Assembly: GCA_005777155.1 (NCBI GenBank)
Contig: SXNM01000392.1
Coordinates: 1 to 38,640, forward strand
Length of the DNA: 38,640 nucleotides
Reading direction: 5' to 3'
Origin: Pseudomonadota bacterium
GTDB lineage: Bacteria; Myxococcota_A; UBA9042
Shown in pieces: positions 8,272 to 35,943 of this stretch. The notes under the pieces are model-generated. The model searched no databases, was not told where the DNA came from, and saw only the letters and a program-made list of their open reading frames with translations. How positions within the stretch are numbered: position 1 is the stretch's first letter; every line of letters begins with the position of its first letter. Position numbers and translations under genes: made by a program.

Positions 8272-8363
8272 CAATCGCTCGCATTGCCGCTTGGGGCGCC
8301 GTCTGGCACTCTGACGCAGCAGAGCCGCAGAGCACGTGCGGCGTGCGCTTGGAGGACGGCGGA

Positions 8364-11300
8364 ATGCGATTGAACCGGACAGAGCGGCTGCTGAAGGCCC
8401 AGATGGTTGACCGCGATGCGACACACGCGCCGCAGCGCCGCGCGGTGCCTCGCGACGCCGTGTTTGGACACGCCTGCCTGCCTTGGCTGGCGGCGCTCGC
8501 GATGCTGGCAGCAAGCTGCGGCACCGATGAAGTGGTGCCAGGCAATTCAGCCGCCGCTGACGGCGGGCTCGCCGGGGACGGCGCCGCCTCCGATGGCCTC
8601 GGCCAGGTCGACGTCGAGGCTGAGCTCCCCGAGGGTGATGCCGCTTCGACAGACTCGACGGACGCTGACGACGTCGCCGCGCCCGACGCCAAGCCCGATG
8701 TCAGCGTCGACGCTGGCCCAGACGGCCAGAGCGACCTGCCGCCCTGCGCCGCCGACCGCTGCGAGATCGATGGCAAATGCTACGACGCCGACGCACAGAA
8801 GGCCGGTGACCCCTGCCGCCGCTGCATGCCGATGGTGGCCGTGGACGCCTTCGTCGTCGTCAGCGGCCCCTGCGACGACGGCCAGCCGTGCACGACCGGC
8901 GACGCTTGCGACGACAAGGGCGGCTGTGTCGGCAAGCCGCTGGTGTGCGACGACGGCAACGGCTGCACCGCCGACGCCTGCAAGGACGGCGCCTGCGCCA
9001 AGACGCCGAACGCCGAGGCCTGCAGCGACGGCGACCTCTGCAGCGTCGGTGACGCCTGCAAGGACGGCGCCTGCAAGGCTGGTCCGTTGAAGGCCTGCGA
9101 CGACGGCAACCCGTGCACGACCGATACCTGCGACCCGAAGAAGGGCTGCGTCGCCACCAACGCCGACGGCCCCTGCGACGATGGCGACGCCTGCACCGGA
9201 GAGGGGAGCTGCCAGACCGGCGCATGCGGCAAGGGCAAGGCGATCTCATGCGATGACGGCGACGTCTGCACAGTGGACGCATGCAAACCGAAGAGCGGCT
9301 GCCAGAACACCTCAATCGCCGCGCAGTGCGTCGACGACAACCCGTGCACCGACGCCGGCTGCGACAAGAAGCTGGGCTGCGTGTTCCCGTTCAACACCCT
9401 GCCGTGCGACGACGCCGACGTCTGCAGCAAGGGCGACACCTGCGCGGTCGGCCTGTGCAAGGGCGTAACCTCCGCAGTCGACGACGGCAACCCCTGCACC
9501 GACGACAGCTGCGACAAGCTGGCCGGACCGCAGTATGTCGCCAACGCGCTGCCCTGTGACGACGGCAACGCCTGCACGCTCGGCGACGTGTGCGCCAAGA
9601 AGGCCTGCCAGCCGGGCGCCGACAAGCCGGTCTGCGACGACGGCAAGGGGTGCACGGCCGACAGCTGCGACAAGCTGAAGGGCTGCCAGTTCATCGCCAC
9701 CACCGCCACCTGCGACGACAGCGACGCCTGCACCAGCGGCGACGTCTGCACCGGAGGCGCCTGCCTCGGCAAGGCCCTCTTGTGCGACGACGGCAACGCC
9801 TGCACGACGGACAGCTGCGACAAGCAAAAGGGCTGCCAGCACGCCCTCATCGTCAGCAACGCCTGCCGGCCCATCATCGTCGTCGACTACCCGCCGCGCG
9901 GCGCGACCATCAAGAGCGAGCTGCCCTTCATCACGGTCAAGGGCAAGGTCACCTCTGGGGCGGGCGCCATCAAATCGCTCTCGCTCAACGGCAAGCCGGT
10001 CAAGGTCGGCGTCGACGGCGCCTTCAGCCACGAGGTCGTGGCGGCGATCGGCGGCAACACCCTGGAGCTGCTGGCCGAAGACACCGCCGGCGCCAAGCGC
10101 AAGCGGGTGCAGGCCTACCTCTGGTCAGACAGCTACCTGCTGCCCGACGCCGCCAAGCCGAAGAGCGGCATGGTTGACCCGGGCGTCGGCTACTTCCTCT
10201 CCAAGCAGGCGATCGACGACGGCGACCACAGCCTGCCGCCCAACGACCTAGCGACCATCTTCGAGCTGTTCCTGCAGGCCTACGACTTCGGCTCCATCAT
10301 CCCGAACCCGGTGTTCAGCGGCAACGGCATCACCGTCAACCTCACGGACCTGACGTACGGCAAGGCCAAGGTCACCTTGACACCGGAGCCCGGCGCGCTG
10401 CTGCTCACGGCGACCATCCCCAACGTCAAGGGCAAGGTCCAGGCCAAGGCATTCGTGCCCTTGAACGGCAATTTGACGATCGACGCCATCCAAATCAGCG
10501 CCAAGGTCAAGCCGAAGGTCGTCAACAACCTACTGGTGACCGACATCAGCGACGTCAAGGCGACGCTGGTCAACTTCAACCTGCAGCTCACCGGGGTCGG
10601 CTCGTTGCTGCAGTTCCTGGTCAATGGCCTCAAGGGCCAGCTGGTGACGAGCTTCGAGACCTCCATCGCCGACGCCCTCAAGACGCAGCTGGCCCCGGTG
10701 GTGTCGGACGCGCTCTCGGCCTTGGCTTTCGCCTTCGACATCGGCGTCGACAGGCTCGACGGGTCGGGCGGCAAGGTGACGGCGAAGCTGACGACGGACT
10801 TCTCCGAGGTGCTCATCGACGCCACCGGCGCCATTTTCCGCCTGCGCGCTGGGGTCTACGCCACCCAGGCCAACTCGTTGACCAACCTCGGGGTTCCCAA
10901 GCGCATCGGCTGTGGCAAGGGCGTCCAACCGCTGGTGGTCATCAAGGAGCAGCCGCTTGAGCTGTCGCTCGCCGACGACACCCTCAACGAGTTCCTCTTC
11001 GCGCTGTGGTTCGGCGGCCTGCTGGAATTTCCAGTCGGGCCTGAGCTCCTCAAGGGCGTCGACCTCGCCCAGTACGGCATCGGCGGCCTGAAGCTGACGA
11101 CCAAGGCGCTGCTGGCTCCGACTGCCTCGGACTGCAACGACAGCGGCGAGCTGCTCGCCCACATCGGCGACTTCCGCGTCGACGCCGCGCTCGACCTCTT
11201 TGGACAGCCGATGAACGTCGTCGTCCACGCCAGCTTCGTCGCCGGCATCAAGGTCACGGTCGAGGCCAATAAGCTCACGATCTCATTGACGGAGATCAAG

Positions 11301-11558
11301 TCCGTCAAGACCGACGTCGAGGTCCAGCAGGCCCACCTCGTCGCCAGCGAGGCCGTCATCGAGAGCCTCGTCGCCGACACGCTGGTGAAGAACCTGCTCG
11401 CCGTGCTCGGCGGATCGGCGCTTGGCGGCTTTGAGCTGCCGGTCATTGACCTGTCGAGCACGGTCAAGGGCCTGCCCAAGGGAACCGGCATCGCGATCGA
11501 TCCGAAGGTCCTGACGCGGGTGAACGGCAACACCATCATCGGCGGCAAGCTGAAGTAG
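8364..11558 (+). CDS. Surface lipoprotein: 13 cysteine-rich repeats, Ig-like domain, putative BPI/TULIP-type C-terminal domain
   Basis: About 1064 residues. A hydrophobic signal (LPWLAALAMLAASC) ends at lipobox Cys52, with Gly at +2, consistent with outer-membrane sorting. An Asp/Ala/Gly-rich tether reaches to about residue 130. A short Cys module (CEIDGKCYDAD...CRRC) is followed by 13 repeats of the CDDGNxCTxDxCD type at about 168-490. Next comes an Ig-like domain (about 495-590) with the pattern IKSLSLNGKPVKVGVDGAF. The last 470 residues are beta-rich and resemble BPI/LBP-like lipid-binding proteins: alternating hydrophobic strands, an amphipathic helix around LKGQLVTSFETSIADALKTQ, and LSLADDTLNEFLFALWFGGLL. 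The BPI match is by eye only. ATG 8364 has GGAGG upstream; ATG 8403 would give a shorter, more usual signal peptide. The second lipoprotein gene follows after 44 bases. Confidence 0.8.
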   Translation: MRLNRTERLLKAQMVDRDATHAPQRRAVPRDAVFGHACLPWLAALAMLAASCGTDEVVPGNSAAADGGLAGDGAASDGLGQVDVEAELPEGDAASTDSTDADDVAAPDAKPDVSVDAGPDGQSDLPPCAADRCEIDGKCYDADAQKAGDPCRRCMPMVAVDAFVVVSGPCDDGQPCTTGDACDDKGGCVGKPLVCDDGNGCTADACKDGACAKTPNAEACSDGDLCSVGDACKDGACKAGPLKACDDGNPCTTDTCDPKKGCVATNADGPCDDGDACTGEGSCQTGACGKGKAISCDDGDVCTVDACKPKSGCQNTSIAAQCVDDNPCTDAGCDKKLGCVFPFNTLPCDDADVCSKGDTCAVGLCKGVTSAVDDGNPCTDDSCDKLAGPQYVANALPCDDGNACTLGDVCAKKACQPGADKPVCDDGKGCTADSCDKLKGCQFIATTATCDDSDACTSGDVCTGGACLGKALLCDDGNACTTDSCDKQKGCQHALIVSNACRPIIVVDYPPRGATIKSELPFITVKGKVTSGAGAIKSLSLNGKPVKVGVDGAFSHEVVAAIGGNTLELLAEDTAGAKRKRVQAYLWSDSYLLPDAAKPKSGMVDPGVGYFLSKQAIDDGDHSLPPNDLATIFELFLQAYDFGSIIPNPVFSGNGITVNLTDLTYGKAKVTLTPEPGALLLTATIPNVKGKVQAKAFVPLNGNLTIDAIQISAKVKPKVVNNLLVTDISDVKATLVNFNLQLTGVGSLLQFLVNGLKGQLVTSFETSIADALKTQLAPVVSDALSALAFAFDIGVDRLDGSGGKVTAKLTTDFSEVLIDATGAIFRLRAGVYATQANSLTNLGVPKRIGCGKGVQPLVVIKEQPLELSLADDTLNEFLFALWFGGLLEFPVGPELLKGVDLAQYGIGGLKLTTKALLAPTASDCNDSGELLAHIGDFRVDAALDLFGQPMNVVVHASFVAGIKVTVEANKLTISLTEIKSVKTDVEVQQAHLVASEAVIESLVADTLVKNLLAVLGGSALGGFELPVIDLSSTVKGLPKGTGIAIDPKVLTRVNGNTIIGGKLK
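8868..9850 (+). repeat. Cysteine-rich coding repeats, 13 units of about 75-80 bp
   Basis: Thirteen copies of a unit of about 25 residues, each starting CDDG or a close variant. Two subtypes largely alternate: one with the CTxDxCDxxxGC spacing and one with CTxGDxCxxGxC. Many units share the DNA core tgcgacgacggcaac, so unequal recombination within the gene, or with the similar repeats in the next gene, is possible. Unit 9 lacks its first and last cysteines. Confidence 0.85.
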
Positions 11559-11602: not shown

Positions 11603-13723
11603 ATGAGTGAGCTTGCGACAGCGACGACGGGCGCGAGGCGGCGGGCCGCACAGGCTGCACTGCTCTTGGCGACACTGACGGCCCTCTGCGCCTGCAGCGG
11701 CGATGACGCGGGCGTTGAGGGCGCCGGCGGTGTGCTCGACGGATCCGCGCTCGACGCCACCGCTGACGGCGCGGCAAGCGCTGACGTCGGCGCCGATGGC
11801 GCGGCGGCAGAGGACACCGGCGCCGAATCCGACGCCGCGGCCACCGGAGACAACGCGGGCGGCGCCGACAGCGCGGCCGACAGCGAAGAGCCACCAGACG
11901 CCGCGGCAGACGCCGCTCCGGGTGTCTGCCCGGATCCCGCGGCCTGCGACGACAAGCGCAGCTGCACCGCCGACGACTGCGCGATGCCGGGCGCCGTGTG
12001 CTCCTGGCTGCTGCTGCCCGGTAACTGCCTCATCGCCGGCGCCTGCTACGCCAAAGACGCCGCCAACCCGGCCAACCCCTGCCAGGTCTGCCACCCCTCC
12101 CTATCGACGACGGCGTGGAGCGCCAAGGCCGACGGCGCCGCCTGCGAGGACGGCGTCACCTGCACCATCAAAGGCACCTGCAAGGCGGGCGCCTGCGCCG
12201 GGGTGCCGCTGGAGTGCGACGACGGCAACCCCTGCACCGCCGACATCTGCAGCGAAGGGGTGGGCTGCAGCTACCCGGCGTTGCTCGGCAGCGAGGCGTG
12301 CGACGACGGCGATGGCTGCACCAAGGCGGACGCCTGCACCGAAGGCATCTGCCTCGGCGTTCCGCTCGCCTGCGACGACAGCAACCCATGCACCAGCGAC
12401 GCTTGCGACGGCAAGGGCGGCTGCAGCCACGCCGCCAATGCCAACCCCTGCAGCGACAGCAACGCCTGCACCTTGGATGACGCCTGTGTCGGCGCGGCGT
12501 GCAAGGGCGGCGCGGCCACCCCCTGCGATGACGGCAACGCTTGCACGATCGACAGCTGCGACGTCCTCGCCGGCTGCGTCCACCTGCCGACGCAGAACCC
12601 CTGCTGCACCGGCGCCACCAGCATCTGCGACGACGGTGACCCCTGCACCACCGACCTCTGCCTGCCGTCGACGGGCGGCTGCACCAAGGCCTTCAACACT
12701 GCGGTCTGCAACGACGGCGACGCCTGCACGGCCAAAGACACCTGCGCCGGCGGCAAGTGCCAGGGCGCGGCGGCGGGCACGACAGGCAACCCGAAGGGCT
12801 GCGACGACGGCAACCCCTGCACGCTCGACGCCTGCGACAAGAAGAGCGGCTGTGTCGCCAGCCCGACCGCAGAGGGCAAGGCCTGCGACGACGGCAACCC
12901 CTGCACCAAGTCCGACGCCTGCAAGTCGGGCGCCTGCAAGGGCACGGGCGCATGCGCCTGCACCCCGACGTTCAGCCCGACGGTCGCCAAGGTGACCTCG
13001 CTGCAGATCGGCAAGGGCGGCCAGATCGGCCAGGGCCTCGACCTCGACGGCAATCCCAAGACGTGCGCGCCGAAGTCGAGCTGCACCGGCGGCATCGACA
13101 ACGCGCTCGGCGCCATCGCAGGCTTGGTCAACGGCCAACTCGTCAAGCCGGTCACCGACGGCTCGATCCTGCTCTTGGTCGAGGTGATGGACTTCAAGCA
13201 GGGTCCGGTGACGCTGGCGATTCACCAGGGCAAGCTCGACCCTGCCAACGCCAGCTGCGACATTCAGAAGGCGGGCTGCCTGTACACCGCCGACGCGAGC
13301 CTGCTCGACGCCCTGACCTGCAAGCCCAAGGCGAGCTTGGCGGGCAAGGTCGTCGGCGACACTCTGACCGCTGGCGGCAAGGGCACGGTGTTTCCGCTCA
13401 GCCTGCCGCTGCAAGACGGTGTCTACCTGAACCTGACCCTCTACGACCTCCAGCTGACCGGCACGATCAGCGTCAGCGACAAGAAGGTCGTCTCCTTCTC
13501 GGGCATCCTCGGCGGCGCCGTGCCCAAGGTGCAGCTGATGGCGGCCATCGACGCCCTACCCAACGAGGGCCTGCCGCTGCCCAAGGACGCCATCAAGACG
13601 CTGCTAGACAGCACGGTCGAGACCGACATCGACGCCGACGGCGACGGCAAGAAGGAGTCGTCCAGCATCGCGCTGCTGGTGCAAGGCGTGGCCGGCAAGC
13701 TCAGCGGCGTCACCCTCAAGTAG
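11603..13723 (+). CDS. Second cysteine-rich lipoprotein with a distinct C-terminal domain
   Basis: A 706-residue lipoprotein. The signal peptide (ARRRAAQAALLLATLTALCAC) ends at lipobox Cys31, with Ser at +2. The acidic Ala/Asp tether runs to about residue 110. Eleven CDDGNxCTxDxCD-type units lie at about 115-452, with the same Cys module (CLIAGACYAKD...CQVC) near the start as its upstream neighbour. The C-terminal 250 residues, from ACTPTFSPTV, are beta-rich. They contain GQGLDLDGNPKTC, GGIDNALGAIAGLVNG and GSILLLVEVMDF, a pattern I associate with myxobacterial lipoproteins of unknown function, and end in an acidic, calcium-loop-like DIDADGDGKKE. The start has AGGAGG seven bases upstream. Closeness and shared architecture suggest it is co-expressed with the upstream lipoprotein; its role is unknown. 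Confidence 0.8.
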   Translation: MSELATATTGARRRAAQAALLLATLTALCACSGDDAGVEGAGGVLDGSALDATADGAASADVGADGAAAEDTGAESDAAATGDNAGGADSAADSEEPPDAAADAAPGVCPDPAACDDKRSCTADDCAMPGAVCSWLLLPGNCLIAGACYAKDAANPANPCQVCHPSLSTTAWSAKADGAACEDGVTCTIKGTCKAGACAGVPLECDDGNPCTADICSEGVGCSYPALLGSEACDDGDGCTKADACTEGICLGVPLACDDSNPCTSDACDGKGGCSHAANANPCSDSNACTLDDACVGAACKGGAATPCDDGNACTIDSCDVLAGCVHLPTQNPCCTGATSICDDGDPCTTDLCLPSTGGCTKAFNTAVCNDGDACTAKDTCAGGKCQGAAAGTTGNPKGCDDGNPCTLDACDKKSGCVASPTAEGKACDDGNPCTKSDACKSGACKGTGACACTPTFSPTVAKVTSLQIGKGGQIGQGLDLDGNPKTCAPKSSCTGGIDNALGAIAGLVNGQLVKPVTDGSILLLVEVMDFKQGPVTLAIHQGKLDPANASCDIQKAGCLYTADASLLDALTCKPKASLAGKVVGDTLTAGGKGTVFPLSLPLQDGVYLNLTLYDLQLTGTISVSDKKVVSFSGILGGAVPKVQLMAAIDALPNEGLPLPKDAIKTLLDSTVETDIDADGDGKKESSSIALLVQGVAGKLSGVTLK
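11945..12957 (+). repeat. Cysteine-rich coding repeats, 11 units
   Basis: Eleven units of the same repeat family as in the preceding gene, again largely alternating two spacings. One unit is followed by an inserted CC-containing segment (NPCCTGATSI), and one linker is lengthened (AAAGTTGNPKG). DNA cores such as gacgacggcaacccctgcac recur exactly within and between the two genes. Confidence 0.85.
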
Positions 13724-22223: not shown

Positions 22224-25200
22224 TCACTTGACGCAGGTCGACAGCAGCGCCACGTCGTCGATCATGACACCGAACCCGCTGTTCGCTGCGCCATCGACGG
22301 TGTTGAAGAAGGCTTCCACCGCCACGGACTTGCCGACATGGCTGCTGACGTCGAGCGACACCTTCTGCCAGACCTTCGGCTGACTGGCCTGGACGCCCTT
22401 GGTCCAGAACGCGCCGTACGTCGGCTGCGCGTTGGCGGTGACGGGCGTGCGGACGCCATCGACCATCAGGAAGAGCTGCAGGCGATCGTAGGCGGTGCCT
22501 TGCTCGCTGTCCCAATAAATCCAAAGGCTCAGTACGCTGACGCCGGGCTGCACCACGAGGGCCTTGCTGGTCGCCGTGCCGGCGCTGGGCGCCCAGGCGA
22601 AGTTCTTGGCCGTACCGTCGCCGTAGTAGAGGACACCGGCGCCGCCGTGGGCGTTGGGCGCCGGCGTCAGGAGCTGCCAGCCCTGCGCGGGGGCCTGCCA
22701 CGGCGCAGGGATGCAGCCTGCCGGTAGCGCCTGGCCGCTGGGGCTGCAGGTCTGCCGCTTCCAGTCGTTGATAGACGCCGCGCTCTCGAAGGTCCATTCG
22801 CCCTGCGACGCGAGGCAGCATCCGGCCTCGGCCTTCCAGGTCCAGCTGCAGAAGCCAGCATTGCAGATCTCGGTGCTGCAGGGCTGGCCGTCGTCGCAGT
22901 CTTTGGCGGTCTGGCAACAGATCTCCTTGTACTTGCAGGAGCCCTTGCCTGTGCCATCGCTAGCGAGGGCGCAGCTGTCCTGCGTGCACGGCTTGCCGTC
23001 GTCGCACTGGGCGTCCTGGCTGCAGCAGCTGGGGCTTAGGCCGAAGCTGCACGCGCCGCCGGCGACGGGGCAGGTGGCGGTGAGGCACGGGTCCGCGTCC
23101 TTGCAGTCGCTGGCCTGCTGGCAACAGCCGGCGACCGGGAGGTTTTGGCAAGCGCCGTTCGAGCAGGCGTCGAGCGTGCATGGCTTGCCGTCGTCGCAGG
23201 TGCTCGCCGGGCCGCAACAGGTATCGGGCCACTGGCAGGTGCCGCTGACGCAAGCGCCCTGGAGGCAGCCGAGGCCACCGTTGCCACACTCGCCAGGGGC
23301 GCTGCAGGGCTTTGGCTTGCAGGTCGAGGCCACCACGACGTCGTCGATCCAGATGCCGGTCCCGCTGATGCCCGCCTGGATCTGGCCGGTGAATTCGACC
23401 TGGACGCTGCGCCCGCCATAGGCCGAGATGTCTGCCGTGATGGTCTGCCAGCCCGGCTTGTTGGCGTAGACGACGGCAAGCTGCGGCGCCGCCAGCGCGT
23501 GGCGAATCGAGAGCGTGACGCGGGACTGGGTAGTCGCCGGCGCGACGGTGAATTGCACCTGTGCCGTCAGCGTCAGCTTCGCGCCCTTGGGTAGCACGAC
23601 GGGTGCCAGCCGTACATAGGACGTCAACAGCGACGGCAGCGGCGCAAACGCCTCGGCGGAGAGGCGGCCGTAGTGCAGCATCGCCTTGCCCTCCTTGGCG
23701 GGCAGCGCATCGGTGGCGGGCTGACGGTGCCAACGCAGGTCGATGGAGGGCGCACTGGTCTCGAGCGGCGCATCGGCGACCTCAAAGCCGTCGGCGAACG
23801 GCGTCACGGCGCAGCAAGCCTCGGTGTCGCCGATGGGGGTGTGGCTGCAGGCGCCGGTCGCTGGGGTGCAGGCATCGGCGGTGCACGGCTTGCCGTCATC
23901 GCAGACGACCGGCTTGGCGCCGACGCAGAGCCCACCGGCGCAGGCGCCCAGCAGGCAGCTGCCGGCGACGCACGGCGTGTCGTTGGCCAGCTGCGCGGAC
24001 TTGCAGCCGCCGGTCTTCGGGTCGCAGACGCTCGAGACGGCGCAGGGCCCGTCGCCAGGCTGGCAAGCGGGCGCCGCCATGGTCAGCCGTCGCAGCCGCT
24101 GGCTAGCGACGTCGGCGACCAGGACGTCTTCACCGAACATCCAGAGGCCAGACGGCTGGTTGCAGCGTGCGCTGGTCAGCGCGCCGTCCGCGAAGCCGTT
24201 GCCCGCCTGGCCGACGTGACGCAACACCTGTGGGCCCTTGGCGGTCGGGCGCGCCTCCAAGATGTGGCCGGCGGCGCTGGCGATCCAGACGCGGCCGCCG
24301 GGCCCGAGGGCGAGGCCAGATGGCTGCGCCACCGACGACAACAAGCCTACACCCTCGTTGACGGAGTTCTGGCCGCTGCCGAGCCAGGTGTCGACGGCGG
24401 CGGTCGCGAGCGACACCCGGCGCACGCGGTTGCCGCTGCGATCGGCGACGAGCAGGTGGTCGCCGCGCCAGAGCAGCGCTGTGGGGGCCATGAACCGCGC
24501 GACGCCGGCGGCTCCGTCGAGGTGGCCGTTGACGCCGCTGCCGCAGAGCGTCGTGACGGCGCCGTCCGTGCCGAGGCGACGGACGCGCAAGTTCCCGAGA
24601 TCGGCGACGTAGACCACGCCCTTGGCGTCGCAGGCGACGTCGCTCGGCGTGTGAAAGCGCGCCGATTTGGCCGGACCATCGAGCATCGCCGCCACTCCCT
24701 CGCCGGCAGCGGTCTCGACCGCGGTGGCCAGGCCATCGGCGCCGAGCGGGATCCGGCGCAGGCGGTGGTTGTTGGCGTCTGCGACGAAAAGCACCTGATC
24801 GCCGCAGAGGGTCACTCCGCGCGGCGAGGCGAACCGGGCCTGCGCCGGCGCGCCGTCGAGGTAGCCGCTGGTGCTGCCAGCGATGGTCGTGACGGCCCAG
24901 GCCTTGGTCTCGACGCGGCGCAGGCGATTGCCGTCGCGCTCGCTGACGTAGACGACGCTGGGCGTGGCCGCAGGGGCCTTCTGCGGATCAGCGACGAAGG
25001 GCCCAGCGAGGCCATAGGGGCCGTGGAGCTGGGCAGCGACGCCCACGCCGTCTGCCGCCCCAGCCTGAGCGCCGCCGACCGTGGTGCGCAGCAGGCCCTT
25101 GCCGCCCTGGCAGACGCCGCCCTGACAATGGTCGCCGAGAGCGCACGGCTGGCCGTCGTCGCAGAGGAGGTCGGTGAACGCTTGGTAGCAAGCGCCGAGC

Positions 25201-28046
25201 CAGGGGTCGCAGCCGTCCAGGGTGCAGACGCTGCCGTCGTCGCAGGCCTTCGCTTTGCCCGCGCAGGCGCCCAGCGCCGTGCAGGCGTCGGCCGAGGTGC
25301 AGGCGTCGCCGTCGTCGCAGGGGGCGTTGGGGGCGCCGGCGACATGGCTGCAGGCGCCGGTCTGGGACACGCAGGCGTCCTTGGTGCAGGGCGAGCCGTC
25401 GTCGCAGACCTTCTGTGCGGGCTGCAGTCGGCGCAGACAGGGGTTGGATTGCTCCGCGAAGCCGATGCCCGCGGCGGTGGCGAACAGCGCGCGCGGAGCC
25501 TGCAGCGTCGCCTTGTCGGCCGCGCCGTCGTTGATGCCGCCGCCGCCATTGGCGCCGAGCACCGTCTTCACCACGGGACTGGCGCCCAGCGTCAAGCGGC
25601 GGAGGCGGGCGTTGCCGGCGTCGAGGATCCAGACCGCGCCGGCGTGCCAGAGGACGTCGTTCGGCGCCGTGAGCGTTGCCTGCGCTGTCGGGCCATCGAC
25701 GGCGCCCGGCCCGCTGGCGCCGCAGACAGTCGTCACGGCGCCGCCGGCGTCGATCTGGCGCAGGCGGTGGTTGCCAGTGTCGGCGAGGTAGAGCAGGCCG
25801 TTCGGATCGACGGTGAGGCCGCCTGGGGAGTTGAAGCGCGCGATCGCCCCGACGCCATCGACCGCGCCAGGCTGTGGCGCGCCGGCCAGGGTCGTGACCG
25901 TGCCGTCGCTGGCGACGCGGCGCAGGCGATGGCGGGTGGGTTCGACGACGTAGACGGTGCCTTTGGCGTCGATCGCCACCGCCTCAGGTTGATGGAGTTG
26001 CGCCGCGACGCCCTTGCCGTCGAGATCGCCGCCGACGCCGCTGCCGCAGAGGGTGTCGACCTGCTGCTGCTTTGAGACGCGCCGCAGCCGGTGGTTGTTG
26101 CGATCGCTGACGATGATCCAGCCAGCGCCCTGGGCCAAACCGCTCGGCGACGCAAACATCGCCAAGGCAGCTGGCCCATCGAGGTAGCCCGAGGTGCCTG
26201 CGCCGGCGTAGGTCGTGACGCCGCCGTCGAGCGCGACGGCGCGCAGGCGGTGGTTGCCGCGATCGGCGACGACGAGCGTGCCATCTGGGCGGGCGACGAC
26301 GGCGTAGGGCTGGGAAAAGCGCGCCTTGTCGGCGGGGCCGTCGAGCATGCCCGGGATCTTCGCGCCGCTGAAGCTGACGACCGTGGCCGCGCCAGGCTTA
26401 CAAGCGCCTTGCTGACAGGCGTCACCGCTGGTGCAAGCGTCGTTGTCGTCGCAGGCGCCGGGCGCTGGCGTGTGGCTGCAGAGGCCCGTCGCTGGGACGC
26501 AGGCGTCGACGGTGCAAGGATTGTTGTCGTCGCAGGTCTTTTGCGCGCCCGACTTGCAGGCCTTGGTGGCCGCGTCGCAAGCCGAGACCGAGCACTTGTC
26601 GGCCTCGCCGCCGCAGTCCTGCAGCTGCCAAGACTTGCCGTCGGCGGCGCACACCAACCGCTTCTCTCCCTTGCACTTGGCGGCCCCAGGGGTGCACGGC
26701 AGCTCGGCGCAGGCGCCCTCGGCACAGTGGCCGCCGCTGCCGGCGGGCCCGGTCTTGGCGCAGTCGGTGACGAGCGCGTGGATGGTGCCGCTCGGGTTGC
26801 AGAGCCAGAGGGCGTCGCCGACGCAGCTGCTGGTGCCGCCCTGGCAGACCTTGGGCTGGCAGGCGCCGAGGTAGCACGCCTCAGTCGCGCCGCAGGCCGC
26901 CAGCTCGTAGCCGCTGCCGTCTGGTTTGCAGCTCTGCACCTTGCCGTCGCTGCTGCAGAAGGCGCTGTTGGGCGGGCAGACCGCCTTGGTGCAGGCGCCC
27001 TCGATGCACAGTTCACCAATGGCGCAGGCTTTGCCCACCTGCCAGGCAACGCCGTTGGGCGGGCATTGGGTCGGAACGCCGCCGGCACATGCTTTTTGGC
27101 CTGGTACGCAGACCCATGGCTTGCAGGCGCCGTCGTCGCAACCCTGGCCGGTGGTGCAGGACTCCATCAGCCAGTTGGTGCCGCCATTGGCGCAGACCGC
27201 GCGGCTCGCCGGCCCGACACACAGGCTCGCCCCAACGCTGCAGAAAGGCGGCGTGCACAGGTCCTCGCTGCAGAGCTCTCCGGCAGGGCACTGCACGCTG
27301 CCGATGCAGGCGACGCAGGTGCCGGCGCTGCCGCACTGAGGGGTCGCGCCGCTGCAGTCGGACTTCTGCCCGCAGGTTGGCGCCGCGGCGATGCACTGGA
27401 ACAGCGTGCAGGCGCCGCCGCCTGGGCAGGCGCCAGCGTTGACACAGTCGACGCAGAAGCCGAAGGGCGCGCACACGCCTCCGTCTGCCAGGCACTCGGC
27501 GTCCACGTTGCAGACGCGCGGCGGCAGGCACTGTTGGGCGACGCAGCGGGCGAATTCACCGGGACAGTGGCCGGCGACGAGGCACGCCACGCACTGGCCG
27601 GTCTTGGCGTCGCACTGCGGGGTCGGGCCGCCGCAGTCTGTCTTGGCGCTGCATTTCACCGGCCCGCTGTCCACTTCGGCGGCGTCGGGCGCGGCGTCGG
27701 CCTCGACGTCGCCGGCCACCGCGTCGGCGTCAGCGTCGAGGGCGTCGGCTGGGCCTGTCTCGGCGGGGTCAGCGTCAGGGGCGGCGTCGCCATCGTGTTC
27801 GGCGTCGCTGTCGGCGTCACTGTCAGTGGCGGCGTCGGCGGTGGTGTCGCCGGGGAGCGCGGCGTCGACTGCATCGGCCTGGACGTCGCCAGCGCCAACG
27901 TCGCCCAACGCTGCGTCGCTGCCGCCGTCCTCGCCGACGGGATCGCCATCGGCGTCGACGACGCGGACCTCGCCACACGCCGCAGAGGCCGCCAAGCTGA
28001 AGCCGACCAGGGCCTTGAGCGCGATCTTCAGAGAGTACTTCCTCAT
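22224..28046 (-). CDS. Giant cysteine-rich lipoprotein with two NHL propellers and two C-terminal jelly-roll-like domains
   Basis: A 1940-residue exported lipoprotein. The signal peptide MRKYSLKIALKALVGFSLAASAAC has lipobox Cys24, Gly at +2. An Asp/Ala-rich tether spans about 28-130. Cysteine-rich modules cover 130-550, the last two of CDDNxxCTxDxC type. NHL block 1 (about 555-880) has six repeats with GNHRLRRV motifs. Four cysteine repeats follow, then NHL block 2 (about 980-1328), also six repeats. More cysteine modules lead to a beta domain at 1415-1573 (FADGFE ... GIWIDDVVVAST), then further Cys repeats, then a second beta domain at 1745-1940 (GEWTFESAASINDW ... MIDDVALLSTC). The ATG at 28046 gives a proper signal; the open frame continues upstream without one. 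A surface binding or adhesion role is inferred; no enzymatic motif is visible. Confidence 0.88.
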   Translation of the reverse strand: MRKYSLKIALKALVGFSLAASAACGEVRVVDADGDPVGEDGGSDAALGDVGAGDVQADAVDAALPGDTTADAATDSDADSDAEHDGDAAPDADPAETGPADALDADADAVAGDVEADAAPDAAEVDSGPVKCSAKTDCGGPTPQCDAKTGQCVACLVAGHCPGEFARCVAQQCLPPRVCNVDAECLADGGVCAPFGFCVDCVNAGACPGGGACTLFQCIAAAPTCGQKSDCSGATPQCGSAGTCVACIGSVQCPAGELCSEDLCTPPFCSVGASLCVGPASRAVCANGGTNWLMESCTTGQGCDDGACKPWVCVPGQKACAGGVPTQCPPNGVAWQVGKACAIGELCIEGACTKAVCPPNSAFCSSDGKVQSCKPDGSGYELAACGATEACYLGACQPKVCQGGTSSCVGDALWLCNPSGTIHALVTDCAKTGPAGSGGHCAEGACAELPCTPGAAKCKGEKRLVCAADGKSWQLQDCGGEADKCSVSACDAATKACKSGAQKTCDDNNPCTVDACVPATGLCSHTPAPGACDDNDACTSGDACQQGACKPGAATVVSFSGAKIPGMLDGPADKARFSQPYAVVARPDGTLVVADRGNHRLRAVALDGGVTTYAGAGTSGYLDGPAALAMFASPSGLAQGAGWIIVSDRNNHRLRRVSKQQQVDTLCGSGVGGDLDGKGVAAQLHQPEAVAIDAKGTVYVVEPTRHRLRRVASDGTVTTLAGAPQPGAVDGVGAIARFNSPGGLTVDPNGLLYLADTGNHRLRQIDAGGAVTTVCGASGPGAVDGPTAQATLTAPNDVLWHAGAVWILDAGNARLRRLTLGASPVVKTVLGANGGGGINDGAADKATLQAPRALFATAAGIGFAEQSNPCLRRLQPAQKVCDDGSPCTKDACVSQTGACSHVAGAPNAPCDDGDACTSADACTALGACAGKAKACDDGSVCTLDGCDPWLGACYQAFTDLLCDDGQPCALGDHCQGGVCQGGKGLLRTTVGGAQAGAADGVGVAAQLHGPYGLAGPFVADPQKAPAATPSVVYVSERDGNRLRRVETKAWAVTTIAGSTSGYLDGAPAQARFASPRGVTLCGDQVLFVADANNHRLRRIPLGADGLATAVETAAGEGVAAMLDGPAKSARFHTPSDVACDAKGVVYVADLGNLRVRRLGTDGAVTTLCGSGVNGHLDGAAGVARFMAPTALLWRGDHLLVADRSGNRVRRVSLATAAVDTWLGSGQNSVNEGVGLLSSVAQPSGLALGPGGRVWIASAAGHILEARPTAKGPQVLRHVGQAGNGFADGALTSARCNQPSGLWMFGEDVLVADVASQRLRRLTMAAPACQPGDGPCAVSSVCDPKTGGCKSAQLANDTPCVAGSCLLGACAGGLCVGAKPVVCDDGKPCTADACTPATGACSHTPIGDTEACCAVTPFADGFEVADAPLETSAPSIDLRWHRQPATDALPAKEGKAMLHYGRLSAEAFAPLPSLLTSYVRLAPVVLPKGAKLTLTAQVQFTVAPATTQSRVTLSIRHALAAPQLAVVYANKPGWQTITADISAYGGRSVQVEFTGQIQAGISGTGIWIDDVVVASTCKPKPCSAPGECGNGGLGCLQGACVSGTCQWPDTCCGPASTCDDGKPCTLDACSNGACQNLPVAGCCQQASDCKDADPCLTATCPVAGGACSFGLSPSCCSQDAQCDDGKPCTQDSCALASDGTGKGSCKYKEICCQTAKDCDDGQPCSTEICNAGFCSWTWKAEAGCCLASQGEWTFESAASINDWKRQTCSPSGQALPAGCIPAPWQAPAQGWQLLTPAPNAHGGAGVLYYGDGTAKNFAWAPSAGTATSKALVVQPGVSVLSLWIYWDSEQGTAYDRLQLFLMVDGVRTPVTANAQPTYGAFWTKGVQASQPKVWQKVSLDVSSHVGKSVAVEAFFNTVDGAANSGFGVMIDDVALLSTCVK

Positions 28047-28122
28047 CCAGCCCCCCTGCTGGGTTCGCCTAGGGGCCCGGCTTCCAAGACCTTCGACCCA
28101 GGCTGGGCAGCGTACCCCTTGC

Positions 28123-28136
28123 GCTGGCGCGCCAGC
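28123..28136. promoter_or_regulatory. Perfect 14-bp palindrome between divergent lipoprotein and S1 genes
   Basis: gctggcgcgccagc is its own reverse complement. It lies 77-90 bases upstream of the giant lipoprotein start and about 170 before the S1 gene, in a 262-base divergent intergenic region that shows no other clear signal. It could be an operator, but GC-rich palindromes arise by chance in such DNA. Confidence 0.25.
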
Positions 28137-28308
28137 AAGTTGCCACGTCCCCGCGCAGGCAGCAGCGCCGCAGAGACCGGCCAGCGCGGCGTGCCCCGCA
28201 GCGGAGGCGCAAGACGCCACGCGGCGGGCCTTGCCAGCCGAGCGATCGGCGCTACCCTGCGCGGCGCGCGCCACGATCTGCATTCGGCGCCGAGGCGAGG
28301 TGCCGACC

Positions 28309-29910
28309 ATGGCGACACAGCAAGCGCAGAAGCCCGCAGGCAGCGGCGACGGCAAGTCCGGCGAGTTCGAGCTCGAGTTCGAGGCCATGTTTGAGGCCGC
28401 CGGGGGCGCCCGCGTCCGCCCACGCCGCCCCGGCCCTGGCGACGAGGTGCAAGGCGTCATCGTCCGCGTCGGCGACCGCAGCGCCGAGGTCTCGCTGGAG
28501 GGCGACGGCGGGCCCTTTGACGCCTTGTTCGACCTTGGCGGTGCGGCCGAGCTGCCCAAGCCCGGCGATCGCTTCCGCGGCTACGTCCTGCGGGTCCGCG
28601 ATCGCACGCTGGAGGTCGCGACCGGCGTGGCGCGCGGCGCCGTCGACCTCGGCGTGCTCTATGACGCGCTGGCTGGCGGGCTGCCGATCGAGGGCAAGGT
28701 CGTAGAGGTCAACAAGGGCGGCCTCGTGGTCGAGTGCGGACCGGTGCAGGGCTTCTGCCCGCTCGGCCAGATGGACATCCGCCGCATCGAAGATCCGTCG
28801 GTGTTCGTCGGCCAGAAGCTGATGTTCCAGGTCACGGAGATGCGGGAGGGTCGCTCGCCGGTCCTCAGCCGACGCCGCGTGCTGGAGGCGGAGGCGGCGC
28901 AGAAGGCGGAGGAGACCCGCAAGAAGCTGGTGCCCGGGGCGCGGCTGCGCGGCGTCGTGACCTCGGTGCGCGACTACGGGGCGTTCGTCGACCTCGGCGG
29001 CCTGGAGGGGCTGCTGCCGCGCAGCGAGCTCGGCTATGGCCGCAAGCACCCGTCCGAGGTGCTGCAGATGGGCCAGGTGCTTGAGGTCGAGGTGCTGCGC
29101 CACGAGCCAAGCGTCGACGGCGGTCGCGACCGCACGACCCTCTCGCTGCGGGCGATGGCCACCGATCCCTTTGAGGCCGCGGCGCAAGAGCTGCCCGAGC
29201 GCGCCATCTGCCGCGGGCGGGTGCTGCGCATCCAGCCGTACGGCGCCTTCATCGAGCTCTGCGACGGCGTCGAGGGCCTCGTCCACGTCAGCGCCTTCGG
29301 CAAGCGCATCGGCACGCCGCGCGACGTCTTCAAGGAGGGCGACGCGACGCTGGTGCGTGTCCGCAGCATCGACCAGGTGGCGCGGCGAATCGCCCTCGCC
29401 TACGTCGACGGTGCCCAGCTCGACGTCGTCCGCGACCCGGCGCTCGTCGTCGGCGGCAACTCGCTCGGCATCGACGTCGTCGGCGTCGCCTTCGACCAGG
29501 GCGACACCGATGAGGCCGGCGAGGCGGGGGCCGTCCGCGCCCACGCCCCAGCGAAGTCGTCGCTGCCGGCTGTGGGCAGCCTCGTGCAGGGCGCCGTCGA
29601 CCGCCACCTGCGCTTTGGCCTACTGGTCGGCTTGACCGGCGGCCACGAGGGCTTCGTGCCCTACAACGAGCTCGGCGTCGCCAGCATCAACGAGGCGCGC
29701 CGCAAGTACCCGACCGGCGCGGCGATTGAGCTGCTCGCCTTCGAGGTGCGCGAAGATGGCCGGATTCGGCTGTCGGCCACCCGCGCCGCGGAGCAGAAGG
29801 AGCGCGACTCGGCGCGCGAGTGGCTGTCGGCGCAGCAGCCACCCAAGCCGGCGTCGGCGATCGACATCGGCAGCTTTGGTGAGCTGCTCAAGCAGAAGCT
29901 CGGGCTGTAG
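28309..29910 (+). CDS. S1 domain RNA-binding protein, five repeats (ribosomal protein S1-like)
   Basis: A 533-residue cytoplasmic protein with five S1/OB-fold modules: about 43-110 (divergent), 126-191, 207-283, 299-366 and 444-515. Typical strands are visible, for example RLRGVVTSVRDYGAFVDLGGLEGLLP and CRGRVLRIQPYGAFIELCDGVEGLVHVS. E. coli S1 has six modules and 557 residues, so length is close. The first 40 residues are charged (EFELEFEAMFE) and differ from classic RpsA. It could be the ribosomal S1 or a second, S1-like translation or RNA factor; no cmk gene, the usual neighbour of rpsA, is nearby. ATG 28309 is chosen as the first Met after the intergenic region; the longer open frame is antisense to the lipoprotein gene. 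Confidence 0.85.
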   Translation: MATQQAQKPAGSGDGKSGEFELEFEAMFEAAGGARVRPRRPGPGDEVQGVIVRVGDRSAEVSLEGDGGPFDALFDLGGAAELPKPGDRFRGYVLRVRDRTLEVATGVARGAVDLGVLYDALAGGLPIEGKVVEVNKGGLVVECGPVQGFCPLGQMDIRRIEDPSVFVGQKLMFQVTEMREGRSPVLSRRRVLEAEAAQKAEETRKKLVPGARLRGVVTSVRDYGAFVDLGGLEGLLPRSELGYGRKHPSEVLQMGQVLEVEVLRHEPSVDGGRDRTTLSLRAMATDPFEAAAQELPERAICRGRVLRIQPYGAFIELCDGVEGLVHVSAFGKRIGTPRDVFKEGDATLVRVRSIDQVARRIALAYVDGAQLDVVRDPALVVGGNSLGIDVVGVAFDQGDTDEAGEAGAVRAHAPAKSSLPAVGSLVQGAVDRHLRFGLLVGLTGGHEGFVPYNELGVASINEARRKYPTGAAIELLAFEVREDGRIRLSATRAAEQKERDSAREWLSAQQPPKPASAIDIGSFGELLKQKLGL

Positions 29911-31227: not shown

Positions 31228-32922
31228 ATGCCGGTCCTCAGCCTGGTGAGCAGCGTCCGCGGAATCACCACGGCGATCAAGGACGTCGGGCGCCTGCGCG
31301 AGATCGCGACCGTGCTGGCGCGTCACGGCTTCGGCGAGGCCGTCAATCGCCTCGGGCTGGCCGACACCGCCGGCCTCGGCTCGCTGGTGCCGGCGCTCGA
31401 CGCGTCGAAGCACCCGATCCCGACTGCGCGACGAATCCGCCTCGCGATCGAAGAGTTGGGCCCGACCTTCGTCAAGCTCGGCCAGATTCTGAGCACCCGC
31501 CCCGACCTCGTCCCCGAGGACGTCGTGGCCGAGCTGCAGCACCTGCAAGACCACGTCCCCGTGCTGCCCTTTGCCGACGTCCGGCGCATGCTAGAGGCTG
31601 AGCTTGGCGAGTCATTCTCTACGCATTTCAACCACATCGACGAGGCGCCCCTGGCGTCGGCCTCCATCGCCCAGGTCCACCGGGCGGTGTTGGCGCACGA
31701 GACCGAAGAGGTCGTGCTCAAGGTGCAGCGGCCCGACATCGCCCGTCGCATCGACGCCGACCTCCACATCCTGCATTTCCTGGCGCGGCAGGTGGAGCAG
31801 CGGCTGCCCGACCTCGCGCTCATGGACCCGGTCGGCATCGTCACGGAGTTCGAGCGGGCGATCTTGCGCGAGCTCGACTTCAGCCAGGAGCGCCGCAATA
31901 TCGCTCGCTTTCGCCAGAACTTCGAGAACTTTCCGAGCGTTCGGGCGCCCCGTGTCTTCGACGCCCACTGCACGACCCGGGTGCTGACCCTGGAGTACGT
32001 CGCCGGGGTCAAGGTCACCCGCGCTGCCCAAGAGCTCGGCGTCGACGCCCACGTCGTAGCCCGACAGATGCTGCAGGCGATCCTGAAGATGATCTTCCAG
32101 GACGGCTACTTCCACGGCGACCTCCACCCAGGAAATGTGCTGATTCAGCCGAGCGGCCAGATCGTCCTCATCGACTTCGGCCTCGTCGGCAGGCTCTCGC
32201 CGCGCCAGCGCGAGCACATCCTCGACCTGCTCATTGGCCTCGCGCGGCAGGACTGGTCGCTGGTGGCGCGGACCTTCTTCGAGCTCGGCGTCAAGGTGCC
32301 CGGTGTCATCTACGACTTCGAGGCGTTCGAGGCCGACGTCATCGACATTCTCGAGCGACACCTCGCCGGCCGCACGCTGTCGGAGATCGACGTCGGCGGC
32401 TACTTCGCCGAGCTGGTCCAGGGCGCGATTCGCCATCAGATCAAGATGCCTCCGACCTATACCTTGGTCTTCAAGGCCCTGATGACGGTCGAGGGCATCG
32501 GCAAGACCTTGGCGCCGGACATCCAGCTGGTCGAGGAGGCGCAGCCCTTCGTCGCCGAGATGGCGGCCGAGCGCTACAGCCCGAAGCGCCTCGTCAAGGA
32601 CGCGATCGACAGCCTCGACGGCATCACCCGCTTCGCTCGCGCCTTTCCGCTGCTGGCCAACTCGCTGCTGCGCGACCTCGCCGACGGCAGACTCACCGTG
32701 CGCGTGGAGCCGCAGGGTGTCGAAGCGGCGATCCAGGCGGCGCGGTCGATCGCGCGACGGCGGAACCGCGCCCTGCTGGCGGGATCGCTCTTTGTCGCCG
32801 GCAGCTTGGCGTTGCCACATGGCGGCCGCGATGTACTCGGCGTGCCGCTGCTGGCCTTGGCCTTCTATGTCGTGGGCGCCGGCTTGGCGCTGCTCTCGCT
32901 CGGCACCGCCTGGCGCGACTGA
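31228..32922 (+). CDS. UbiB/ABC1/AarF-family atypical kinase
   Basis: A 564-residue member of the ABC1 atypical kinase family; bacterial relatives support ubiquinone biosynthesis or lipid handling at the membrane. Key motifs are present: VKLGQILSTRPDLVP (KxGQ at 83-86), PLASASIAQVHRA (Ala-rich loop region, 141-153), VVLKVQRP with K165, ELDFSQE, HGDLHPGN with D298, and IDFGLVG with D316. Two C-terminal hydrophobic segments (about 512-555) would anchor it in the inner membrane. ATG 31228 has AGGAGG at ideal spacing. No quinone-biosynthesis gene is adjacent, so the pathway cannot be assigned from context. Its stop codon lies within the first unit of a 12-bp tandem array. Confidence 0.93.
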   Translation: MPVLSLVSSVRGITTAIKDVGRLREIATVLARHGFGEAVNRLGLADTAGLGSLVPALDASKHPIPTARRIRLAIEELGPTFVKLGQILSTRPDLVPEDVVAELQHLQDHVPVLPFADVRRMLEAELGESFSTHFNHIDEAPLASASIAQVHRAVLAHETEEVVLKVQRPDIARRIDADLHILHFLARQVEQRLPDLALMDPVGIVTEFERAILRELDFSQERRNIARFRQNFENFPSVRAPRVFDAHCTTRVLTLEYVAGVKVTRAAQELGVDAHVVARQMLQAILKMIFQDGYFHGDLHPGNVLIQPSGQIVLIDFGLVGRLSPRQREHILDLLIGLARQDWSLVARTFFELGVKVPGVIYDFEAFEADVIDILERHLAGRTLSEIDVGGYFAELVQGAIRHQIKMPPTYTLVFKALMTVEGIGKTLAPDIQLVEEAQPFVAEMAAERYSPKRLVKDAIDSLDGITRFARAFPLLANSLLRDLADGRLTVRVEPQGVEAAIQAARSIARRRNRALLAGSLFVAGSLALPHGGRDVLGVPLLALAFYVVGAGLALLSLGTAWRD

Positions 32923-33058
32923 CGACGCGACTGACGACGCGACTGACGACGCGACTGACGACGCGACTGACCACGCGACTGACCACGCGACTGACCACGC
33001 GACTGACCACGCGACTGACGACGCGACTGACGACGCGACTGACGACGCGACCAACGCC
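32915..33058. repeat. 12-bp minisatellite, 11 near-identical units plus one decayed unit
   Basis: The unit is gcgactgacgac or gcgactgaccac, differing at one base. Units 1-4 have G, 5-8 have C, 9-11 have G, and unit 12 (33047-33058) is diverged. Unit 1 overlaps the last codons and TGA stop of ubiB, so in that frame each unit encodes Arg-Asp-stop. The array fills the space between two convergent genes. Confidence 0.95.
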
Positions 33059-33072
33059 GGCGGCTGCGGGGC

Positions 33073-33124
33073 GTTGGGGCGAGGCGTCGGGGCGAGGCGG
33101 TGGGGCGAGGCGGTGGGGCGAGGC
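33073..33124. repeat. Four 13-bp G-rich tandem repeats
   Basis: Units gttggggcgaggc, gtcggggcgaggc, ggtggggcgaggc and ggtggggcgaggc, followed by a partial fifth, lie just after the 12-bp array. Each has a run of four G on the plus strand, so four-stranded G structures are possible. No clear hairpin terminator is seen between the convergent genes. Confidence 0.85.
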
Positions 33125-33146
33125 GCCGGGGGTAGGGACAAGGGCG

Positions 33147-35600
33147 CTAGCGCACCGCGACCCACTTCTCGAGCTCGGCCTGCAGCGCCGGCTTGGCGGT
33201 GTCGCCGTAGCCGACCGAGCGGAAGCGGACGACGCCTTTGCGGTCGATGACGTAGCCTGTGGGCATGTTGGCGACGTCGAAGCGGCCGAGGATGAGGCTC
33301 TTCGGGTCGTAGTCGACCTCGTATTCGAGGGCGCCGAGGCCGGCGACGAAGCTGCGGCCCTCAGCGGGATCGGTGTCGACGCCGATAGCGATGATCTCAA
33401 AGCCTTTGTCGCCATAGCGCCGCTTGAACTCGTTGAGCTCGACCAGCTCGCGGCGGCACGGGCTGCACCAGCTGGCAAAGAAGGTGACGAACAGCACCTT
33501 GCCGCGCAGGTCGCGCAGGGTGCGCTTGCTGCCGTCGCGGCCGAGGAACTCGAAGTCTGGCGCGGGCTTGTCGACCAGGGGCGCCGGCTCGGCCTGGGCC
33601 ACGGCGCTGGCGCTGGCGTTGGCGACGTCGCGGTCGGCGCAACAGCGGAATCCGACGCCGGGGGCGTGGTGTCCGGGCCCGTAGCTGCGGTGGCCGCGGA
33701 CGCAGCTCGCCTTGTCGCCAGCGCGGTAGTCGCCGCCGGCGAGCTGGGCTTTGTCTTCTTGGAGTTCGATCCACTCTTCGACGTTGCCGGCGAGATCAAA
33801 CACGCCCTCGGTCGTGCGGCAGTTCGACAGGGCGCCGGTCTCCCGCGGCTTGCCATTGATGCGGTCGCCGTCGTCGTTGCAGTGGCCGGGCTCGTGGAAG
33901 TCCGCGTAAGGGAACTGGTTCCCCTCGACGTAGTCGTCGATGTAGTCGCCGTTGCCATCGTCATCGTGCGCCGGCTGGCCGGTGCAAGCCGACGCCCACT
34001 CGGCGCTGCCGCAGAGGCGCTTGCCGGCCTTCTCGCAGGCGCCCTTGGCCGCGTACCAGCTCGCGGTGGCCGGAACGACGCCAGCGAGCGAGAGCGCCCG
34101 GCCTTCGGCGTCGAGCGACGCCTCGTAGCGGTCGATGAAGCTGCGTTGGCCGCCTGGACCGGTCAGCGCGGCCATGCCGGCGGGCGGCACCTGCGACCAC
34201 GCCTGCGTGGCCTCACTGGGTGGCGCCACCTCGCCCGAGATCGGCACCTGGACCGGCGGCGGCGCCATGCCTGCTTTCTCCAGCTCGGTGTCGATCATCT
34301 TCGACAGCACCTCTTCGGGCAGCGCGCCAGACAGCATCAGGCCGTTGAGGAAGGTGCGCGGCGTCGCCTTGAGGCCGAGGTCGACGCCGGCCTCGTCGAT
34401 GCTGCGCTTGAGCGCGTCGCGCGCCGCCGGATCGCGCAGGCAGGCCTTGTAGGCGTCCATGTCGAGGCCGACGCCCTCGGCGTAGTGCCTGAGATCGCTT
34501 GACTCGAGTTTGTGCTGGTTCTTGAACATGATGTCATGCATCGGCCAGAACTTGCCCTGTCGGCGGGCGCACTCAGCGGCGAGCGAGGCGTTGCACGCCC
34601 ACTTGTGGCGGTTGTTTTGAATGTGGGCGTTGCAGAGCGTGTTCATCGGGAAGTGCTTGAACACAAAACGCACCTTGCCGTCATAGCGCCGCTTTAGCGT
34701 CTGCATGACGTAGAAGAGCTTCTTGCAGTAGCCGCACTGGAAGTCCGCGTACTCGATGATCGTCACTTTGGCGTCCGCCGGTCCGATGCTGGCGTCGTCG
34801 GGGTGCACCGGGATTTCAAACAGGGAGTCGCTGAGCTTGCGGGCCTTGGCGCCGGCAGCGACCGGCGGGCTCAGGGCGTCGCGCTGGGCGCTGGCGCCGG
34901 TGCCTGCCGCGCTCGCCTCGGCCGCCAACTTGGCGCGGGCGACGTCGGCGGCGGCCATGGCCTGGTCGGCGGCCTTCAGCTGCACGGCGAGGAGCTCGCG
35001 GCGGGTGCCATCGGCGAGCTGCCACGTCACGCCGACGCTCACGAGGCCGATGGCGACGGCCAGCAGCGTCGGCGCGATGAGGCGGAAGGGCTCGCCCTTG
35101 CGCTGACGTAGGCCGAGGTGACTGGCGGCGAGCGTCACGGCTGCGGCCACGTCCATGGTCAGGCAGAACAGGCAGTACGTGCGCTCGATGGCCACCATGA
35201 CGTAGAAGAGCAGCAGGCCGTAGCCAAGGGCCAGCGCCGCGCCGAAGCGCAGCAGGTGCAGGGCGCCGACCGCGTGGGCGCTGCGGCCGAGCGCCTGCAC
35301 CGCCAAGGCGGCGAAGGCGATCCAGGTCGGGATGGCGAACACCGTAATCGGCGTGTCGAAGAGCTTGCCCCAGCTGGAGGTGGTGATCTTGTCGCAGTCG
35401 AAGGTCTCGTTGATGGAGCAGACCGAGTCGACCACCTCGGCGCCATAGGTCTTGCGCAGGTAGATGTGCAGCAGGTAGCCGGCGGCCGTGATGGCGACGG
35501 CGGCAGCGGCCAAAATCGCGAACACCGGCGCGCGGCTGGGCGTCGACGCCTTGTCGGGCGCGGCTGGCGCACCAAGTTCGCTCTGAGGCTTGGACTCCAT
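33147..35600 (-). CDS. Four-domain redox fusion: VKOR - DsbA - FGE-like - TlpA thioredoxin
   Basis: An 817-residue membrane protein. Residues 20-200 are a five-helix VKOR domain with both Cys pairs (C61/C69; CLFC at 143-146), which passes electrons to quinone. Residues 255-445 are a DsbA-like domain with CGYC (289-292) and cis-Pro motif TP (413-414), plus extra Cys in the helical insert. Residues about 475-655 resemble formylglycine-generating enzyme/sulfatase-modifying factor (DLAGNVEEW, VGFRCC) with eight Cys. Residues 670-817 are a TlpA/ResA thioredoxin with WCSPC (711-715) and cis-Pro780. Five helices would put the soluble domains in the periplasm. The start has AGGAGGG at good spacing. 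VKOR-DsbA fusions are known; I know of no family with all four parts. Confidence 0.92.
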   Translation of the reverse strand: MESKPQSELGAPAAPDKASTPSRAPVFAILAAAAVAITAAGYLLHIYLRKTYGAEVVDSVCSINETFDCDKITTSSWGKLFDTPITVFAIPTWIAFAALAVQALGRSAHAVGALHLLRFGAALALGYGLLLFYVMVAIERTYCLFCLTMDVAAAVTLAASHLGLRQRKGEPFRLIAPTLLAVAIGLVSVGVTWQLADGTRRELLAVQLKAADQAMAAADVARAKLAAEASAAGTGASAQRDALSPPVAAGAKARKLSDSLFEIPVHPDDASIGPADAKVTIIEYADFQCGYCKKLFYVMQTLKRRYDGKVRFVFKHFPMNTLCNAHIQNNRHKWACNASLAAECARRQGKFWPMHDIMFKNQHKLESSDLRHYAEGVGLDMDAYKACLRDPAARDALKRSIDEAGVDLGLKATPRTFLNGLMLSGALPEEVLSKMIDTELEKAGMAPPPVQVPISGEVAPPSEATQAWSQVPPAGMAALTGPGGQRSFIDRYEASLDAEGRALSLAGVVPATASWYAAKGACEKAGKRLCGSAEWASACTGQPAHDDDGNGDYIDDYVEGNQFPYADFHEPGHCNDDGDRINGKPRETGALSNCRTTEGVFDLAGNVEEWIELQEDKAQLAGGDYRAGDKASCVRGHRSYGPGHHAPGVGFRCCADRDVANASASAVAQAEPAPLVDKPAPDFEFLGRDGSKRTLRDLRGKVLFVTFFASWCSPCRRELVELNEFKRRYGDKGFEIIAIGVDTDPAEGRSFVAGLGALEYEVDYDPKSLILGRFDVANMPTGYVIDRKGVVRFRSVGYGDTAKPALQAELEKWVAVR

Positions 35601-35943
35601 CGATCCCTCCTAAACTCCAGCGCGCCATCCCTGGCCCGGCGGAGCATGTCGCGACGGGCCTGCTTCTGCAAAGTAGGCGCAGCGCCCCTGCTCTGCAGGG
35701 ATTGGATCATCGCCTGCGTCCGAGTTGTTCGGGAGCGCAGTCGTCTGCCGCGGCCCGGACTCGACCGCGGCGATGTGCGCTGCTTGGTTCGCTTCGACGC
35801 CCGACCCGCGTCGGAGCCTCGACGCGACGACGCCTGGGCTTGGCAACACGCCGAGGTCGATCGAGATTCCAAGGCCGCCGCGGCTGGCCCGCCGCGGCAA
35901 GGTGCGCGCGGCGATGACGAGCCAAGGGCGGCGCGCAAGATCG
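35601..35943. other. Intergenic region, no gene recognised
   Basis: This is the only stretch over 300 bases without a gene. It lies between the amidohydrolase-like gene and the VKOR fusion, both on the minus strand, and should hold the fusion's promoter, although no convincing hexamer pair is visible. Short open frames on both strands are Arg-rich and look like GC artefacts. No tRNA, hairpin terminator or repeat was recognised. Confidence 0.6.

Follow-up and report, generated by a model that had tools for sequence, protein, structure and literature searches.

Thioredoxins of the TlpA/ResA/CcmG type are generally kept reduced, and E. coli keeps its oxidase (DsbA/DsbB) and isomerase (DsbC/DsbD) pathways separate. 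The closest described relatives of the protein reported here are the two-domain VKOR-DsbA or VKOR-Trx fusions, such as Synechococcus VKOR and the Clostridium protein CsVKOR-DsbA. Known bacterial VKORs have a fifth transmembrane helix and a C-terminal Trx domain (PMC4555120), and the Clostridium protein is able to complement E. coli that is doubly mutant in dsbA and dsbB (PMC12453122). Within the window, which is the whole stretch of 38,640 nucleotides analysed, we identified a gene whose predicted product shares with these fusions a VKOR of five transmembrane helices, four redox cysteines and then a periplasmic thioredoxin fold, and adds to them a pseudo-FGE module, a TlpA domain and four invariant cysteines in the DsbA domain. 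No published description of the VKOR-DsbA-FGE-TlpA architecture was found in a literature search of limited coverage, which agrees with the original prediction that it was undescribed. The four-domain protein is a real and so far undescribed variant of the VKOR-DsbA disulfide generators.

The four-domain protein and its distribution

The claim that one genuine polypeptide carries all four domains was borne out by a single open reading frame (Table 1) and by four Pfam domains above their curated cut-offs. These are VKOR (PF07884, 6e-15, residues 28-158), Thioredoxin_4/DSBA (1e-25/2e-17, residues 268-437), FGE-sulfatase (PF03781, 8.5e-8, residues 510-653, a partial match covering profile positions 92-253 of 255) and AhpC-TSA/Redoxin (2e-19, residues 676-801). 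Among solved structures, residues 247-445 matched DsbA-type proteins and residues 667-811 matched TlpA/ResA/DsbE-type proteins.

Table 1. Coordinates of the four-domain gene, its parts and the cysteine-rich proteins in the window
Feature	Position in window	Strand	Details
Four-domain protein CDS	33147..35600	(-)	817 aa, ATG start; ORF 35600..33147
Shine-Dalgarno AGGAGG	35606..35611	(-)	5 nt ahead of ATG; read in sequence
VKOR domain, residues 26-160	35121..35525	(-)	loop C61/C69, S75, active site C143xxC146
Fifth transmembrane helix, residues 174-196	35013..35081	(-)	hydropathy and positively charged loop RQRKGEPFR
DsbA-like thioredoxin domain, residues 258-447	34260..34829	(-)	CGYC 289-292, P414; further invariant Cys 323, 336, 344, 387
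FGE/SUMF-like module, residues 470-658	33627..34193	(-)	8 invariant Cys, without catalytic Cys pair
TlpA/ResA-type thioredoxin domain, residues 672-812	33165..33587	(-)	WCSPC 711-715, P780
Cys-rich protein, Dicty_CTDC repeats	8343-11558		64 Cys
Cys-rich protein, Dicty_CTDC repeats	11603-13723		60 Cys
Cys-rich protein, Dicty_CTDC repeats	22224-28559		144 Cys

Each of the other 21 family genomes carries the four-domain protein, which makes 22 of 22 with its own genome. The latter has another intact copy (C171, 882 aa), which includes VKOR, as well as a third that is truncated at a contig end (C254). In a sample of the phylum, 52 of 284 genomes, belonging to 15 families, matched the four-domain protein at E<=1e-60; this count is a lower bound, with three candidates scored per genome and a single protein as the query. 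Six divergent homologues each independently passed the curated cut-offs for all four Pfam domains. Related database records are MAGs labelled Polyangiaceae, Myxococcales and Oligoflexia, four relatives that are mostly distant. A search of 198 genomes of another phylum, run without a positive control, gave no strong match. A mobile or plasmid origin was rejected, as none of the plasmid records matched the query over 80% of its length.

An assembly, frameshift or chimera error joining separate genes had to be considered, the own genome being a fragmented assembly that is 59% complete. However, the same architecture is present in two paralogues of the own genome and in dozens of other homologues, and third-position GC is uniform along the entire reading frame (0.87-0.94, no break). 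Because dozens of independent homologues share the architecture, recurring in both the family and the phylum, we consider an artefact excluded, with a negligible probability.

Two further kinds of protein were noted in these searches. Three divergent DsbA-FGE proteins in family f26 (L077, L078 and L079) have an N-terminal part that does not score as VKOR and a TlpA part below threshold. In addition, the own genome encodes a different VKOR protein of 741 aa (C179, L082:6821-9043), in which the VKOR lies mid-chain (residues 259-402) and is followed by a weak DsbA-like match.

Redox motifs, topology and the FGE-like module

Hydropathy placed transmembrane helices at residues 26-44, 85-103, ~120-138, ~141-160 and 174-196; the positively charged loops lie where an N-in orientation would put them. 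Given an N-in topology with five helices, the DsbA, FGE-like and TlpA domains are therefore predicted to face the periplasm, which matches the known bacterial VKOR layout. Residues C61, C69, S75, C143 and C146 of the VKOR domain are conserved in 27-29 of 28-29 alignment rows, and their spacing matches that of human VKOR (C43-C51-S57 plus CxxC). In the DsbA domain, C289, C292 and P414 are conserved across the family and C323, C336, C344 and C387 are all invariant. Both CxxC cysteines of the TlpA domain (C712 and C715) were found in 31 of 31 rows and P780 in 30 of 30. With these cysteines conserved in the family alignment, the redox motifs of the VKOR, DsbA and TlpA domains proved intact, as had been predicted.

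The protein thus shows the features of a VKOR-DsbA fusion, namely a fifth helix followed by a thioredoxin domain with CxxC and cis-Pro, and it shares with TlpA/ResA/CcmG periplasmic thioredoxins the WCxPC motif, the trailing cis-Pro and an AhpC-TSA/Redoxin-type domain. Unlike those thioredoxins, TlpA is here joined to a disulfide-generating VKOR-DsbA unit, either by fusion or by translational coupling. The active-site dipeptide of the DsbA domain is GY in the window protein and PY in most relatives; the classical DsbA active site is CPHC. Since these dipeptides are as similar to those of DsbC/DsbG as to that of classical DsbA, we infer the oxidase direction of this domain from its fusion to VKOR. 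A VKOR-DsbA oxidase core is a well-supported reading.

The FGE-like module resembles FGE/SUMF1 and SUMF2 (PF03781) over the C-terminal two thirds of the profile, in the GNxxEW and GFRC motifs, and in four cysteines. These four (C522, C539, C633 and C653) align with the cysteines of the two structural disulfides of SUMF1 (C218-C365 and C235-C346), and the corresponding bonds in the module are putative. In contrast to FGE/SUMF1, the module has a shorter N-terminal part, four extra invariant cysteines (C530, C574, C594 and C654, all eight being invariant) and no catalytic cysteine pair (C336/C341 in human SUMF1). In the segment that holds this pair in FGE, a cysteine was found in none of the 36 homologues. 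The best PDB match of a profile of the 36 modules was human SUMF2 (1y4j, 3e-11), with SUMF1/FGE weaker, and SUMF2 (pFGE) is a paralogue of FGE that has no enzymatic activity (PMC13199485).

Because the catalytic-segment cysteines are absent in 36 of 36 homologues and the best match is an inactive protein, we read the module as an FGE fold that is non-catalytic by the known mechanism. The original prediction had allowed for cysteine modification by this part, and an enzyme acting on clients, by formylglycine formation or another oxidation, would fit the Pfam match above cut-off and the retained equivalents of the cysteines in FGE's two structural disulfides. However, the residues responsible in FGE are missing throughout and the nearest structural relative is SUMF2, which makes an active cysteine-modifying module very improbable; an active formylglycine-generating enzyme was rejected on these grounds, while some chemistry unlike that of FGE is conceivable, if improbable. 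The module is best read as a putative disulfide-braced, non-enzymatic binding or scaffold module, and such a catalytically dead FGE fold inside a disulfide machine would parallel SUMF2 in the ER. A single-sequence AlphaFold prediction of the module had a pLDDT of 38. In the own genome, the sole other clear relative of the module, of the same cysteine-rich non-catalytic FGE-like type, forms the end of a 722-aa protein (L106:881-3049) with a lipoprotein-like N-terminus.

Linkage and possible redox direction of the TlpA domain

At ten loci in other families (f20, f23, f33 and f47), the protein stops after the FGE-like module (VKOR-DsbA-FGE, three domains), and TlpA is encoded by a gene of its own, immediately upstream and in the same orientation. 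At seven of these ten loci, the TlpA stop codon and a start codon share a 4-nt overlap. The separate TlpA proteins mostly have hydrophobic, signal-peptide-like N-termini, and WCxPC is present in all of them. As TlpA is upstream when split and C-terminal when fused, the loss of a stop codon cannot account for the fusion. Genome context therefore ties TlpA to the VKOR-DsbA-FGE unit in two different gene arrangements. Five genomes (G064, G087, G202, G242 and G273) carry a fused and a split copy together, and the split sequences form one clade in the tree of the DsbA-FGE core and one in the tree of TlpA. Fused and split TlpAs group apart from ten other TlpAs of these genomes with weak support (0.457).

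Further thioredoxin-like genes were observed. In family f16 (L086-L089), a second, lipoprotein-like TlpA gene with WCGPC directly follows the fusion and overlaps its end in L086 and L087, where this was measured. Proteins with two to four tandem DsbA-like domains are encoded in the own genome (C428, L109:2410-4494; C455, L110:856-3093; C260, L007:1474-2637) and at L039:5722-8436, where four such domains are immediately followed by a TlpA gene.

We consider it fairly likely that the chain is a self-contained periplasmic disulfide-generating machine, in which a quinone-driven VKOR-DsbA oxidase is combined with a scaffold module and an arm of the TlpA type. Following established VKOR-DsbA chemistry, quinone would oxidise C143/C146 of VKOR, the loop pair C61/C69 would pass the disulfide on to C289/C292 of DsbA, and the DsbA domain would oxidise secreted clients. 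The FGE-like module, with up to four stabilising disulfides and without the FGE catalytic cysteines, would serve as the non-enzymatic binding or scaffold part. The TlpA arm, the least certain step, may act on the same clients, either as a reductase/isomerase recharged via a DsbD/CcdA-type protein or as a second VKOR-fed oxidase.

TlpA may instead be another outlet of the one VKOR, with both thioredoxin domains acting as oxidases on different clients, though we lean against this. It would be in keeping with the presence of TlpA in the same chain as VKOR, with the translational coupling of the split TlpA to VKOR-DsbA-FGE, and with the absence of a dedicated reductant gene adjoining the fusion at the window locus. 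However, TlpA-type proteins are as a rule reduced, and a DsbD/CcdA-type membrane domain (DsbD_TM) was found in 20 of the 22 family genomes; this reductive membrane route could serve TlpA, a link that we infer. It is also conceivable, though less likely than not, that one chain combines an oxidising VKOR-DsbA arm with a reducing or isomerising TlpA arm and holds clients on the pseudo-FGE between them, and so both makes and proofreads disulfides. If true, oxidase and isomerase pathways that are apart in E. coli would be physically joined. A VKOR-DsbA oxidase tethered to a TlpA-type thioredoxin makes the rule of pathway insulation testable within one molecule.

Disulfide pathway, candidate clients and neighbourhood

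All 22 family genomes have a VKOR, whereas DsbB was absent from all 22 in a search that finds DsbB in control genomes. The fusion was the only VKOR match in ten of them (G001, G003, G004, G005, G009, G010, G013, G018, G019 and G020), six of which are at least 92% complete. Since DsbB is absent and the fusion is often the sole VKOR, many of these cells probably depend on it as their main disulfide generator, and surface proteins with cysteine repeats are very plentiful in this family. Some redundancy may come from the tandem DsbA-like proteins of the own genome and from extra VKORs in some genomes.

The original prediction also proposed three proteins of the window, putative lipoproteins packed with cysteine repeats, as natural clients. 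The cysteine repeats are indeed present (Table 1), and Dicty_CTDC repeats are extremely abundant across the whole family; as clients of the fusion, these proteins are plausible candidates. Outside the family the correlation is weak: counts of cysteine-repeat candidates, a loose first-look measure with statistics that ignore relatedness, were higher in fusion carriers (median 649 vs 330, p=0.011), and the difference between carriers and non-carriers per Mb was not clear (p=0.065). The largest of the three window proteins also contains NHL repeats.

At the window locus, an amidohydrolase gene and a 435-aa open reading frame without a Pfam match lie upstream of the fusion on the same strand, and the fusion faces a convergent ABC1 kinase gene, a neighbour shared with genome G015. 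Another orthologue group, which comprises C171 and most of the family, has the conserved run fusion - NAGPA - PEGA - kelch - DUF11 giant. Such a run might be expected if the fusion were a dedicated assembly factor for surface proteins encoded alongside it and not a general disulfide generator. This is unlikely, because neither the window locus nor the split loci have this run, the neighbours are cysteine-poor (2-12 Cys each) and the fusion is the sole VKOR in many genomes. As the neighbourhood varies, the fusion more likely acts in a general capacity than in the service of any one neighbour. Two repeats lie between the stop codon of the fusion and the convergent ABC1 gene: a 12-bp tandem repeat of 11.5 copies with 98% match (window positions 32914-33051) and a 13-bp GC-rich repeat (33058-33146).
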